Source: Natrinema salinisoli
Lineage (GTDB): Archaea > Halobacteriota > Halobacteria > Halobacteriales > Natrialbaceae
Length of the DNA: 64,000 bases
Assembly: GCF_020405205.1 (NCBI RefSeq)
Contig: NZ_CP084469.1
Location: 2,604,001 to 2,668,000, forward strand
Direction: 5' to 3'
The position numbers and the translations under genes are program-made. Below are positions 4,538 to 47,790 of the stretch, one piece after another. Numbering within the stretch: position 1 is the stretch's first letter; each line of letters starts with the position of its first letter. The notes under the pieces are model-generated. The model was not told where the DNA came from. It made no database searches and saw nothing but the letters and a program-made list of their open reading frames with translations.

Positions 4538-6379
4538 TCAACCCGAGAACAGTTCCGGGCCGAACAGCAACATGAGGAAGCTCACGAGCATCGTCACGCC
4601 GATCGCCGTCGTCACCACGCGGACCATTCCGCGGGTCGCGTCGATCGGTAACCGGGAGACGATCGCCTCCGTACTCGTCCGGAGGATGTGGCCGCCGTCG
4701 AGCGGGAACGCCGGGATGCAGTTGAAAAAGCCGAGCTGAATGTTGATCCAGCCGGTCCAGAACAGCAGGTTCGCCAGCACGAAGACGGTCCCGTCGCCGA
4801 ACGCACCGAGCGCTCCCTGAGTCTCGTAGAAGTTCTGGACCCCGCCGGTGAAGCCGGCGAAGTTGAACGGCATCGCACCGCTGACCCCGAGGACCGGCAG
4901 CATGATCGTGATCACGATCTTTCCGAGGAAGGTGTCGGTAATGGGACCGAACCGCGTCTCGCCGTCGCCGCCGAGCAGCCCCAGATACTCGCCTGCGGGA
5001 TAGAGTTGGACGCCGATATCGTTCATCGCGATGCCGGACGTTCCCGGCTGGCCCTGAATTCCGAGGAACCCGCTATCGGCCCGCGGATGCTCGTCGAGCG
5101 TCACGGTGTAGGTCTCGCGTTCGTCGCCGAAGTAGCCCGCCACCTCGACCTGCTGATCGGGCTCGCTGTCCTCGAGGATGGGAGCGAGGTCTCCGTAGGT
5201 CTGGATGCGCTCGCCGTCGAAGCGAGTGATGACGAACGTCTCGTCGGTCGGCCCGGTTTCGCGCTCGAGCGGCCCGTCGGCGGCGACCGAGACGGCTGCG
5301 CCGATCGGTACCTCGCGTTCGACGCGCTCGTCGCCGCTCGCGGGGTCGATCGTCAGCGTCACTCGCTCGTCGTCACCGACGGCGTCCATGAATCCCCGTT
5401 CGGTCGCGATCGTCTGGCCGTCGACCGCACGGATCTCGTCACCGGCAGTGAGTCCCGTCGGGCCATCGTCCATCGCCGCGGTCACGAGCAGCGATCGATC
5501 GACGCTCACCGTTTCCTCGCCGTTGAGTTCGACTGTCACTTCCTCGCCGTCGGCGGCCTCGAGCCGATCAGCGAGGTCGTCGTTGCCCTCGACTGCGGTG
5601 CCGTCGATCGCCGTAATGCGGTCGTTCGGTTCGATGCCGGCGTCGGCGGCGGGCGAATCGGGTGCGACGCCGCCGACGGCGGCACCGGGCGCGACGCCGA
5701 TCGCGCCGACGACCGGTCCGAACAGCAGCGCGAAGGCCAGCAGCGTGATCGCGAAGTTGTTCGTGACGCCGGCGGCGAACATCCGCGTCTGGCCGCCGCG
5801 AGAGGCCGCCTTGCTGCTTTCCTGATCGGGTTCGACGAACGCGCCGACCGGAAGGACCGCGAGCATCGCGACCCCCATCGAGTCGATGTCGATGTCCTCG
5901 ACGCGACAGAGCAGGCCGTGACCGCCCTCGTGGACGACGAGGCCAACGAGCAGGCCGAAGACGATGCCGGGCGTGGCGGCGAGCGGCAGGAAGTCGTTGA
6001 CGCCGGGGATGACGAGGACGTTGCGCGGCTGTCGAACCGCGGACGACGTCATCTGTGGCGTCGAGAGTGCGGTCATCGCCGCCTGGATGAGAAACGCGAA
6101 CATGCCCACCATCACGACCAGCGCGATTCCGACGCCGAGGTTCGACCACGCCCGCCAGAACCGCTTCGGACGAGCGAGGCGATCGAGCAGCACTCGTCCG
6201 CGTTTGGTGTGGAACGTGAGAATCGGACCCTGCGTACCAATGTAGTCGGGGAGATAGCCGGCGTTCCGGACGGCGATTATCGCGACCCAGTAGAGGAGGA
6301 GGCCGACCAGAACCCACGTGACGAGTTCCGAGCCGAATATTTCGGGCGGTGAGACGAACGCGAACGAACCGTGATCCAT
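4538..6379 (-). CDS. Site-2 protease family (M50) intramembrane metalloprotease with PDZ region
   Basis: A 613-residue multipass membrane protein. The zinc-binding HEGGH motif lies at residues 150-154 in a hydrophobic helix, and the third-ligand motif PLDGGH at about 559-564. Between them is a long soluble region (about 230-440) with one or two PDZ-like repeats (GVAPDSPAADAGI; GLTAGDEIRAVDG). This order is that of RseP/S2P proteases, which cleave membrane-spanning substrates such as anti-sigma factors or membrane-bound regulators. The substrate here is unknown. It is monocistronic between padR and lysS. A second S2P homologue without an obvious PDZ region is encoded at 11722-12885. Confidence 0.93.
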   Translation of the reverse strand: MDHGSFAFVSPPEIFGSELVTWVLVGLLLYWVAIIAVRNAGYLPDYIGTQGPILTFHTKRGRVLLDRLARPKRFWRAWSNLGVGIALVVMVGMFAFLIQAAMTALSTPQMTSSAVRQPRNVLVIPGVNDFLPLAATPGIVFGLLVGLVVHEGGHGLLCRVEDIDIDSMGVAMLAVLPVGAFVEPDQESSKAASRGGQTRMFAAGVTNNFAITLLAFALLFGPVVGAIGVAPGAAVGGVAPDSPAADAGIEPNDRITAIDGTAVEGNDDLADRLEAADGEEVTVELNGEETVSVDRSLLVTAAMDDGPTGLTAGDEIRAVDGQTIATERGFMDAVGDDERVTLTIDPASGDERVEREVPIGAAVSVAADGPLERETGPTDETFVITRFDGERIQTYGDLAPILEDSEPDQQVEVAGYFGDERETYTVTLDEHPRADSGFLGIQGQPGTSGIAMNDIGVQLYPAGEYLGLLGGDGETRFGPITDTFLGKIVITIMLPVLGVSGAMPFNFAGFTGGVQNFYETQGALGAFGDGTVFVLANLLFWTGWINIQLGFFNCIPAFPLDGGHILRTSTEAIVSRLPIDATRGMVRVVTTAIGVTMLVSFLMLLFGPELFSG

Positions 6380-44904: not shown

Positions 44905-45900
44905 ATGATCTCGAAGGGCTGTGAGCAGTGCGCGAAAGGTGGCAAGATGGTGCTGTTCGTCTACGGATACTGCGACCAGCGCGACTGCTTTTACTGCCCG
45001 CTCGGCGAGAACCGCAAGAACGTCACCGACGTCTACGCCAACGAACGGCTCGTCGAGAGCGACGAGGACGTCCTCACCGAGGCCCACCGGATGGAGGCGC
45101 TCGGCACGTCGATCACCGGCGGCGAGCCCCAGGAAGCGCTGGGTCGGACCTGCCACTACCTCGAGCTCCTGAAAGACGAGTTCGGCGAGGACCATCACAC
45201 GCACCTCTACACCGGCATCACCGGCGGCCGCGAGAACATGCGCCGCCTCTCGGAAGCGGGCCTCGACGAGATTCGCTTCCACCCGCCCTACGAACAGTGG
45301 GGCGACCTTCACGGGACCGAGTGGGAGGAGATCCTCCACATCGCCCGTGAAGAAGGCCTGACTCCCGCCTTCGAAATCCCCGGCATTCGCGCCGAAGAGG
45401 AGTTCCTCGAGTTCCTCGACGAGGGCGCGGCGGAGTTCTGCAACATAAACGAGTTCGAGATGAGCGACGGGAACTACCGCCGGATGCAGGAACAGGGGTA
45501 CGAACTCAAAGAGGACCACATGAGCGCCGTCGAGGGCTCTCGCGAGGACATCCTCGACGTCATGGGCGACCACGAGAAGGTCTACTTCTGTACGTCCGTG
45601 TTCAAGGACGCGGCCCAGCACCGCCGCCGCCTGAAACGGATGGCCCGGAACATCCGCCGCGAGTTCGACGACGTCACCGACGACGGAACCCTCGTCTACG
45701 GCAAGACCCACGCCGACCCCGAGGAGTTCGACGCCCTCGGCGTCCCCGAAGAGTTCTACACCGTCAAGACCGACCACGTCGAAGTCGCCTGGTGGCTCCT
45801 CGAGGAAATGATCGAGGACGGCGACCTCGAGGACGGCGAAATCGTCGAGCAGTACCCGACCTACGACGGGCAAGTGGTCGAGCGGACGCCGCTAGCGTAA
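44905..45900 (+). CDS. Radical SAM-like protein with unusual CX4CX2C cluster motif
   Basis: A 331-residue protein. The putative [4Fe-4S] motif is YCDQRDCFYC with Cys23, Cys28 and Cys31: four residues between the first two Cys, not the usual three. The radical-SAM glycine motif SITGGEPQEA follows, and the beta-alpha fold segments TGITGGRENMRRL and DEIRFHPP. Two further Cys (6 and 9) precede the cluster. I know archaeal homologues of unknown function, so no substrate is given. The start at 44905 suits the family; ATG at 44893 is an alternative. Its last nine codons and stop are duplicated at 46050-46078. Confidence 0.85.
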   Translation: MISKGCEQCAKGGKMVLFVYGYCDQRDCFYCPLGENRKNVTDVYANERLVESDEDVLTEAHRMEALGTSITGGEPQEALGRTCHYLELLKDEFGEDHHTHLYTGITGGRENMRRLSEAGLDEIRFHPPYEQWGDLHGTEWEEILHIAREEGLTPAFEIPGIRAEEEFLEFLDEGAAEFCNINEFEMSDGNYRRMQEQGYELKEDHMSAVEGSREDILDVMGDHEKVYFCTSVFKDAAQHRRRLKRMARNIRREFDDVTDDGTLVYGKTHADPEEFDALGVPEEFYTVKTDHVEVAWWLLEEMIEDGDLEDGEIVEQYPTYDGQVVERTPLA

Positions 45901-45990
45901 GAACCGCGAACGAACGGAAGCGCGGCGCTACGCGCCGCGGGAAGACGAGCGGCCCGCGGCCGCGAGTGAGTGATCGGGTCTTTTTTGGTG
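45901..45990 (+). repeat. 3'-flanking repeat family 2, divergent copy, with hairpin and T-tract
   Basis: Immediately after the TAA stop of the radical-SAM gene the element starts with GAACCGCG (45901-45908), the same stem half as in the other copies. A perfect 8-bp hairpin CGCGGCGC/GCGCCGCG (45921-45928 with 45932-45939) follows. GAGTGAGTGA, shared with the copy at 46079-46245, and a run of six T (45981-45986) complete it. It could act as a transcription terminator. Confidence 0.65.
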
Positions 45991-46049
45991 CAGATTTTTG
46001 CTCCGAGCGGTGCGCTGTGCGCACCCGAGGAGGAAAAAGGTGCACGTGG

Positions 46050-46078
46050 CAGGTCGTCGAGCGGACGCCACTAGCGTA
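46050..46078 (+). repeat. Second copy of the 3' end of the radical-SAM gene
   Basis: These 29 bases match 45871-45899 at 26 positions. In frame, both encode QVVERTPLA. The three differences (CAA/CAG, GTG/GTC, CCG/CCA) are all synonymous, and the stop is TAA in the gene and TAG here. The copy is preceded by unrelated sequence. It looks like the end of another allele of the same gene left by recombination. Confidence 0.8.
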
Positions 46079-46245
46079 GGACCGCGAGCGCTGCGCGGTT
46101 CGGAACGAGCGAAGCGAGTGAGAACCGCGAATGCGAATAGCGAGGGACGCAGAGCGTCCCTCGGACCATGCGAGCCGGCCGTCGGCCCGCGAGCAGACGG
46201 GGAACGAAGTGATCCGTGTACGAGTGAGTGAGCGGCTTTTTATCC
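46079..46245 (+). repeat. 3'-flanking repeat family 2, copy 3, with inserted hairpins and T-tract
   Basis: Block 1 (46081-46132) matches 38551-38602 in 51 of 52 positions and can form the same alternative stems. An insert with the hairpin GAGGGACGC/GCGTCCCTC (46142-46150 with 46154-46162) and a GGCCGTCGGCC hairpin follows, which copy 1 lacks. Block 2 (46197-46218) and a five-T run (46237-46241) close it. Nothing else coding is seen before 46317. Confidence 0.75.
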
Positions 46246-46316
46246 ACGGTTGTCCGTCCGACTCGCGGCCGGTGTCACTGACGCTCGTCGAGGCTCCGGT
46301 GAACACCGGCCGTCGT

Positions 46317-47621
46317 TCACTCCACTTCGGTCGGATCGACGCCCGGCAGCGTGATGAGGTTCTCGCGCCCGATCCGAAGCTTTTCGATCTCGTCGTCGTC
46401 GTCCATCTTCGAGAGGAGCTGTGAGACCTTGGCGTTCGACCAGCCGGTCTCCGAGACGATCGAGGCCTGTTTCATCCGCCCGCCGTTTTGCTTGAGCAGG
46501 CGGTGGACGCGCTCCTCGTCGCTCAACAGTTCTGGGTCGATCTCGTCGTCGACGGATTCCTCGAACTCGAGGCTCGTCCCCGACTCGGGATCACCGGACG
46601 CTGACGAATCGGCCGTCGAGACTACGTCGGAGCCGCCGTTTCCATCGGCCGTTGCGGTCTTGTGCCCGTCCGCGGGACTGTTCGAACGGCCGGGCAACTC
46701 CGCGTTCTCGAGGACCGACAACCGATCGGACGGAATCGGAACGCCGACGTCTATATCACGACGCGTGAGCAGGTATGCAATCCCACCGACGAGGATCACG
46801 AGGGCGAGAACTGACGCGATCAGCCATCCGGCTCCGGGAAGGAAGAAGGGGCCGCCGGCACCCTCGAGAATCGTGATCTGGACTCCGTTCTCGCCGAATT
46901 CGTGGGGGCCGTCCCAGACGAGTGCGCCGTCCTCCGTACTCGTCGGCGCATCGACGAATCCGTAGTTCGATGGGGGTTCGATAACCAGGCGCTGCCCGCT
47001 ACTCAACGTCCGGAACAACGTCCCGTCGGACGTTTGGAGGGCGTCACCGACGTGAATCCGTTCGCCGTCGACGGTGGCGAAGTTCGTCCACGTAAACGAG
47101 TAGGAGATGATCCCGACTCGATACGGCTCTTCGTCAACCGATCGGTCCGCGTCGAGGTCGACGGTTTCGATTCGGGGGTCGTCCCACGCTGCGTTCTCGA
47201 TCGACATATTGCGGCCGGTCGACTTAGACGCGAGATTCGCGTACCGTTCGAACAGTTGGGGATCGTACCCGGCGTCTCGTTGGCCCGAGACGACCGCATC
47301 GGCATACTCGTCGAACGTTTCGGCATCGTCGTCGTCCGTCACGCGGAACCGACTCTCGACCGTCCATTTCGCGTCCCCGGTATCGGTGATCCGAATCCTG
47401 ATCACCTGCCAGGTATCGGGTCGTTCGAGCGGCGGTGGTGCGGTGGACGAGGCCGAAACGGACTGAGACTGCTCGGGAGCTGTGGAGAGCGATGAGGGGT
47501 CTGGGGCTGGCCGCTCGATAGTCGCCGGGGTCGATGCCGACGGCGTGGCGGCCACTGCCCCCATCGTGGTTGTCGCGAGGAGGACCGCGAGGGCAAGTGT
47601 GGCGGCAGTGGACATCCGCAT
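46317..47621 (-). CDS. Membrane-anchored protein with extracellular domain and C-terminal winged helix
   Basis: A 434-residue protein. A signal peptide (about 1-25) leads to an extracellular domain of about 220 residues, a membrane helix (about 262-284) and an acidic linker. The C-terminal winged helix (about 370-425) includes LLSDEERVHRLLKQNGGRMKQASIVSETGWSNAKVSQLLSKM. This is the layout of haloarchaeal regulators recalled as DUF7345/DUF7343 proteins. It could sense an envelope signal and bind DNA from the membrane, possibly after cleavage by a site-2 protease; this is inference. The ATG at 47621 was chosen; 47615 is also possible. It is divergent from the DUF7094-type gene. Confidence 0.82.
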   Translation of the reverse strand: MRMSTAATLALAVLLATTTMGAVAATPSASTPATIERPAPDPSSLSTAPEQSQSVSASSTAPPPLERPDTWQVIRIRITDTGDAKWTVESRFRVTDDDDAETFDEYADAVVSGQRDAGYDPQLFERYANLASKSTGRNMSIENAAWDDPRIETVDLDADRSVDEEPYRVGIISYSFTWTNFATVDGERIHVGDALQTSDGTLFRTLSSGQRLVIEPPSNYGFVDAPTSTEDGALVWDGPHEFGENGVQITILEGAGGPFFLPGAGWLIASVLALVILVGGIAYLLTRRDIDVGVPIPSDRLSVLENAELPGRSNSPADGHKTATADGNGGSDVVSTADSSASGDPESGTSLEFEESVDDEIDPELLSDEERVHRLLKQNGGRMKQASIVSETGWSNAKVSQLLSKMDDDDEIEKLRIGRENLITLPGVDPTEVE

Positions 47622-47790
47622 GCGTATCAACGGGTGGTTTCCCGGGGGAAAAAACACTTTCCATCGGAAAATAAAACGTTACTGGCGGCGTTGAAAGCTC
47701 TAATTCGCCGTGAGAGGTTCGCTACGATCGGTTTCTTCTCATCACCGACAGACGACCGGTTTTTGTATCAAGAGCCCATACGGAACCCCG

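Follow-up and report, generated by a model that had tools for sequence, protein, structure and literature searches.

Recombination between haloarchaeal species is well known, and its single events are hard to see once the flanks have been homogenised. In homology-facilitated illegitimate recombination, one end of the exchange is homologous and the other is not. Further systems close to the case described here are in situ allele displacement and the islands that integrate into, and restore, gene 3' ends. Homologous recombination between haloarchaeal species is frequent (PMC4500145). For the deletion-coupled insertions of Haloquadratum walsbyi, the mechanism is left unexplained in the sections of the published account on which we draw (PMC3119063).

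Here, we describe a locus of Natrinema salinisoli at which the end of a radical-SAM gene occurs twice, on either side of a hairpin. The locus lies in a stretch of 64,000 nucleotides, analysed as a whole and referred to as the window. A relic of a displaced allele beside the incoming one would be a direct footprint of exchange, findable by scans for gene ends, with both alleles visible and datable against relatives. In the open-access literature searched, we found no description of such relics.

The duplicated end of the radical-SAM gene

The last nine codons of the radical-SAM gene (327-335), together with its stop, recur downstream, with 179 nt between the two starts (Table 1). The match of the gene product to its Pfam family falls just short of the curated cut-off, and orthologues are present in most sampled haloarchaea. 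The functional end (L) reads CAA GTG GTC GAG CGG ACG CCG CTA GCG TAA and the relic (R) reads CAG GTC GTC GAG CGG ACG CCA CTA GCG TAG. All three differences in sense codons (CAA/CAG, GTG/GTC, CCG/CCA) are synonymous, and the stop is TAA in one copy and TAG in the other. The initial annotation had reported this duplication correctly, with ends (45899 and 46078) that fall one base short of each stop, the true ends being 45900 and 46079.

Table 1. Features of the radical-SAM locus (window coordinates)
Feature	Position	Strand	Basis
Radical-SAM gene, functional copy, 335 aa	44893..45900	+	ORF; Pfam PF04055, E 2.9e-6
Functional end of the gene (L, left), nine final codons plus TAA	45871..45900	+	
G+C-rich hairpin block, stop to T-run	45901..45973	+	93% match to N. 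salsiterrestre L039 5264-5336
Hairpin element E	45981..46049	+	Fold, junction spacing, compensatory stem changes
Parts of E	T-run; TGCA 45989-45992; T5 45995-45999; inner hairpin; A5 46034-46038; GG; TGCA 46041-46044		
Relic end (R, right), nine codons plus TAG	46050..46079	+	
Relic's own flank, hairpin block from 46081 on	46080..46247	+	Alignment to N. mahii locus L045
Convergent neighbour, HTH protein (DUF7345, DUF7343)	46317..47657	-	ORF, domain matches

With up to 3 mismatches allowed, the gene-end pattern matches only twice in the 4.7 Mb genome, and the reversed pattern, used as a control, has 0 matches. A dispersed repeat that carries the radical-SAM end is ruled out, since the end is found only these two times. 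The initial annotation had named a separate expressed gene as an outcome that would count against its reading. There is no sign of one ending at 46079: R is preceded by a hairpin and T-run spacer, and the sole open frame across it (45792-46079) overlaps the radical-SAM gene in a different frame. The PINc ATPase gene of this genome is followed by a block that matches 45901-45973 at 86% (L032).

N. mahii carries a single-copy state, the existence of which the initial annotation had made a condition of its reading. There, the functional gene end runs straight into a block of the 46081 type (...ACGCCACTGGCGTAA GTG CCGCGAGCGCTGCGCGGTTCGGAACGAGCG). Such an allele had been predicted together with a TAG stop; the run into the block holds, and the stop is TAA, not TAG. 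Positions 46050-46137 of the window align to 4976-5064 of the N. mahii locus (L045) at 92%, with an alignment that spans the functional stop. Over the 80 nt behind each gene end, the relic's flank reaches its highest score, 51, with N. mahii; the next best match scores 21, and the flank of its own gene 10. Of the 27 coding positions of the relic, one differs from the N. mahii end and three from the end of its own gene. As judged from these sequences, R is probably the end of another radical-SAM allele, left behind by recombination.

How recent was the event? The nearest named relative by the radical-SAM gene, N. salsiterrestre, has the same relic, the same joint and the same block after the relic. 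Its identity to the window is ~94% in the 5 kb that lead to the gene end and 94% in 3 kb downstream of it; within the gene, 100-nt steps give 92-100%. As identity to N. salsiterrestre shows no step, we reject the idea that the focal gene was replaced recently in this strain. The initial annotation had proposed comparing the gene with its neighbours, and ~94% across the gene and both flanks speaks against a late date: allele replacement that leaves an old end behind stands in kind (N. mahii, and pheT and ileS below) and falls as an event recent to this strain.

On the radical-SAM gene tree, the window genome and N. salsiterrestre are sisters and the next relative, G010, lacks the relic. The scar being common to the pair, the event predates their split. 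The G+C-rich block lies behind L in the window and behind R in N. salsiterrestre, so units seem to have swapped parts since. On this tree, the focal gene falls together with G010 and the N. pallidum group, and the relic and its flank resemble N. mahii. On this comparison, the import could be either the focal gene or the relic with its flank.

The neighbourhood of the gene also varies. A lipoprotein gene adjoins the radical-SAM gene in some Natrinema (loci L003-L006, L018); in the window (46317-47657), N. mahii and other genera, a convergent HTH gene follows instead. This context changed at least twice on the gene tree within Natrinema, a count for which many loci are unscored.

The hairpin element at the joint

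Two features escaped the initial annotation: a conserved hairpin stands at every junction, and some species carry tandem, homogenised arrays. The junction in the window falls directly after 46049. Hand-checking of 21 scars from ten gene/lineage combinations places the start of the relic 9-11 nt after an A-run, and this right joint lies in sequence unrelated to the gene. The A-run is the right arm of an element, E, of the form T5-6 GG NNNN GA T5-6 - inner hairpin - A5-6 GG NNNN. Over 66 distinct instances of E, the NNNN arms pair at a mean of 3.38 of 4 positions; with shuffled partners the mean is 2.66 of 4, and the highest of 1000 shuffles reaches 2.98. At position 2 of the outer stem, C-G occurs 40 times and G-C 21 times, and the corresponding counts at position 3 are 39 and 18. 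These compensatory changes in the arms indicate that the outer stem is real. A search of E with the covariance models of Rfam gave nothing near significance.

The spacers between the two ends, 62-267 nt long, contain E and no gene, and a T-run lies between stop and relic in 21 of 21 hand-checked scars. T-stretches act as transcription terminators in Haloferax volcanii (PMC7237163), and E probably includes or follows a terminator. Eight strict elements occur in 1.2 Mb of two Natrinema genomes, six of them with a gene-end repeat at the right edge. Across the whole genome of the window, the repeat is present at 5 of 10 motif sites; the others are intergenic, some between convergent genes. E has a defined right edge, paired arms and dispersed copies, and the length duplicated beside it varies, always extending across a gene end.

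These properties could also belong to a small mobile hairpin element that inserts behind the terminator T-run and duplicates 30-110 nt of its target, the gene end together with the terminator. L and R would then be identical at first, and a later allele exchange would replace L and leave R. We regard this sequence of events as unlikely; insertion with a long target duplication and later exchange is still the main rival, and fits the data almost as well. Mobility would account for the defined right edge, the compensatory stem changes and the fractions of strict elements and motif sites that carry a repeat of the upstream gene end at the right edge. It would also account for copies that stop exactly at the T-run (L064, L090) and for an E core of the radical-SAM type at ileS of G015 and G020. 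However, E carries no gene, and we know of no transposition that yields target duplications of 30-110 nt always covering a stop. L and R are also different alleles at ileS of G042 and pheT of N. zhouii, so a second process would be needed anyway.

Other observations concern the surroundings and relatives of E. At ileS of G015 (L270) and G020 (L278), the inner stem is of the radical-SAM type, a hint that the cores of E move, or are converted, from one gene to another. An element 85% identical to that of the window stands upstream of another gene at G000:C1:1054861 (L034, L123), with no relic, and is a possible source of the window's E by conversion. Separately, a dispersed block with the core CCCGGGGGAGGGCAGGC lies just upstream of E at four sites of the window's genome (G000:C1 near 449950, 2908308, 3702989 and 3842258; L171, L173, L174, L175), and a similar block lies behind the relic in Natronococcus (L060, L086, L087, L089). 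It may be an RNA or a repeat in its own right, and it has no match in Rfam.

Scars across haloarchaea and at other core genes

In a survey of 60 genomes, mostly Natrialbaceae, the repeated radical-SAM end was found in 23. The scars lie at the same junction in many genera, and a relic is also present behind the radical-SAM gene of a Haloferax. On the gene tree, the scar must have been gained or lost at least 14 times, with well supported branches forcing no fewer than 8 of these changes. Some loci are tandem arrays with two or more repeats of the end (L011, L013, L015, L016, L076, L086). Repeats are identical or near-identical to the gene end over 84-121 nt at L069, L072 and L086. More broadly, few or no differences separate L from R over 30-120 nt at L072, L069, L086, L013 and L058, where the copy reaches into the terminator. 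Near-identity over such lengths in several relatives is what in-situ duplication or conversion would produce.

Differences between L and R, pooled over 29 pairs, fall 23/8/41 on first, second and third codon positions, a count drawn from non-independent pairs, with the codon at the joint contributing part of the first-position share. This bias to the third position, and the fact that different species carry relics at the same genes, might suggest a repeated end that selection maintains for a function of its own, for instance as a regulatory RNA or a DNA site. Such a function is scarcely credible given the patchy presence with many gains and losses, the truncated or broken state of some relics (L283, L079) and the lack of any common sequence among relics of different genes, whose starts likewise share no common core.

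Scars at other genes were sought with a stop-anchored scan of gene ends and pseudo-end controls, replacing local alignment, which was noisy from repeats within proteins. Pseudo-ends gave similar raw numbers of matches through protein repeats, and the stop together with the A-run or element distinguishes true scars. Apart from the radical-SAM gene and its neighbour, gene names were read from translated ends, with no family search. The scan covered four genomes: that of the window (G000) over 800 kb, and G026, G060 and G045 over 400 kb each. The 800 kb hold four scars of one architecture, at the radical-SAM gene, pheT, a PINc-domain ATPase and an SDR gene. In 400 kb of a second Natrinema there are three, all at genes of that set. 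Two genomes from other families, scanned over 400 kb each, and 50 kb of E. coli yielded no scar of the E-R type. Whole-genome motif searches of the window's genome added ileS and dph6, which brings the core genes with relics there to five besides the radical-SAM gene (pheT, ileS, dph6, the PINc ATPase and SDR). Relics of etfA occur in other Natrinema and one Natrialbaceae genome, and a relic of the DNA polymerase D large subunit in a Haladaptatus.

The relics of pheT and ileS are the most informative about origin. In the window's genome, the working pheT ends in FDLAALQ and the relic encodes FDLEALR, the pheT end of all other sampled Natrinema but two, which have FDLEALH. In N. zhouii, the working pheT ends in ...CTCCGGTAGGGCCGCGAGCG, with both this end and its flank of the type of G010, G015 and G020, and is followed by E and a relic ending in ...CTGCGCTAATCGG in the other downstream context, the single-copy form of which occurs in G014, G004 and G008. 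The N. zhouii gene is nearest to those of G020 and G015 and has their end type, and its downstream neighbour is of the other type. In G042, from another family, the working ileS ends in ...FEADQREASEQASGD and the element is followed by a Natrinema-like end, DVEGVGMEIAIEPLAAPEASD-stop. Relic plus flank at ileS scores 46 for G015 against the single-copy G010, and 38 for G018 against G008, on a scale where 95% of unrelated flanks score 14 or less and hairpin-rich flanks reach up to 50. Compared in this way, the pheT and ileS relics of relatives are clearly the end of another allele in its old context.

Two loci may record more. At L293, the space between the working ileS stop and the element holds a second relic, very short (GCTGCACCCGAAGCGTCGGAGTAG), which hints at two replacements in succession. 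In G039 (1134851-1135709 region), a second 94-residue match to the ileS C-terminus adjoins the gene and could be a longer relic of the same kind.

Could the gene end and terminator simply have been duplicated in tandem in place, by slippage or unequal crossing-over at the hairpin, with subsequent divergence and gene conversion? The exact repeats and the arrays of three or more units (L013, L076, L086, L011, L015 and ileS of G014) would be natural products, as would the position of the 45901-45973 block in a different unit of the sister species. At most pheT and ileS scars, however, the flanks of L and R score only 7-10, at the level of the control, and are unrelated, and R often equals the single-copy flank of another species. 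The G042 ileS relic was not copied from L, and together with pheT of N. zhouii it contradicts tandem duplication as the sole process. We therefore consider this origin improbable for the scars as a whole, and tandem duplication likely as the route by which units expand.

Origin of the scars and comparison with known systems

The reading that we favour, and consider probable, is exchange between alleles with the right edge set by E, followed by expansion and homogenisation of units. Recombination would join two versions of an allele, with the gene, its own end, the terminator and E on the left, and the end of a different allele (R) with that allele's 3' flank on the right, the joint being the right edge of E. 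On the left, the exchange would proceed through homology inside the gene; on the right, it would involve a DNA end or a template switch at the base of the hairpin. Where a donor already has the L-E-R arrangement, R would serve as the right homology arm, so that E would travel with the gene between strains. E and a gene end that pass to a new strain would leave the recipient's end in the R position. The mosaic ileS relics of G016, G019 and G011, the first half of which equals their own L and the second half of which differs, fit R in the role of homology arm. Unequal crossing-over and gene conversion would then add, remove and homogenise units. The exclusively synonymous changes between L and R would be a trace of R's earlier life as a working gene end.

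The two ends lie side by side, R has a single-copy counterpart and the joint is fixed at E. Scars are old and shared, units seem to have been exchanged, and the architecture recurs at further core genes, with L and R clearly from different alleles. The spread of L-R differences over codon positions and the number of changes required by the gene tree also speak for allele exchange. Counting against allele exchange, the focal gene shows no identity step and its sister shares the scar. Relative to what the initial annotation had envisaged, the replacement is older, recurrent and tied to a conserved hairpin. Hairpin plus relic looks like a recurrent footprint of swaps between gene versions at core genes. 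A fixed right junction is unexpected for ordinary homologous replacement. Lying as it does at a conserved hairpin, the junction suggests that a structure at transcription terminators determines one edge of the exchanged DNA, an idea testable in laboratory haloarchaea. We tentatively raise the possibility that E is an undescribed small haloarchaeal element that sets one end of interspecies DNA exchange. A cut or end at the hairpin base would let gene ends and terminators be swapped, with the resident end left as a datable footprint.

How do these scars relate to known systems? As in in situ allele displacement, a functional gene sits in the context of another allele and only a local stretch is exchanged. 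Single-copy alleles with the relic's end and flank occur (the radical-SAM gene in N. mahii; ileS in G010 and G008; pheT in the class II species). However, the old gene end is retained here, and the right breakpoint lies at the base of a conserved hairpin, not in homologous sequence. The deletion-coupled insertions of Haloquadratum walsbyi are likewise haloarchaeal exchanges at identical positions, with some variant genes in shared context; as far as the sections on which we draw describe them, they have no targeting sequence, junction hairpin or relic end (PMC3119063). Islands that integrate into and restore gene 3' ends also leave inserted DNA flanked by a duplicated gene end. Here, in contrast, the insert is 62-267 nt long and has no gene, the targets are many unrelated genes and there is no common core site. 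An integrase-type island is rejected, as such spacers are too short for an integrase gene and no core is shared. Homology-facilitated illegitimate recombination would yield a donor L, a non-homologous joint and the recipient's remaining end, as in the scars described here, but in these the joint is confined to a 3-nt window behind a defined element, which would not be expected of its non-homologous joint.
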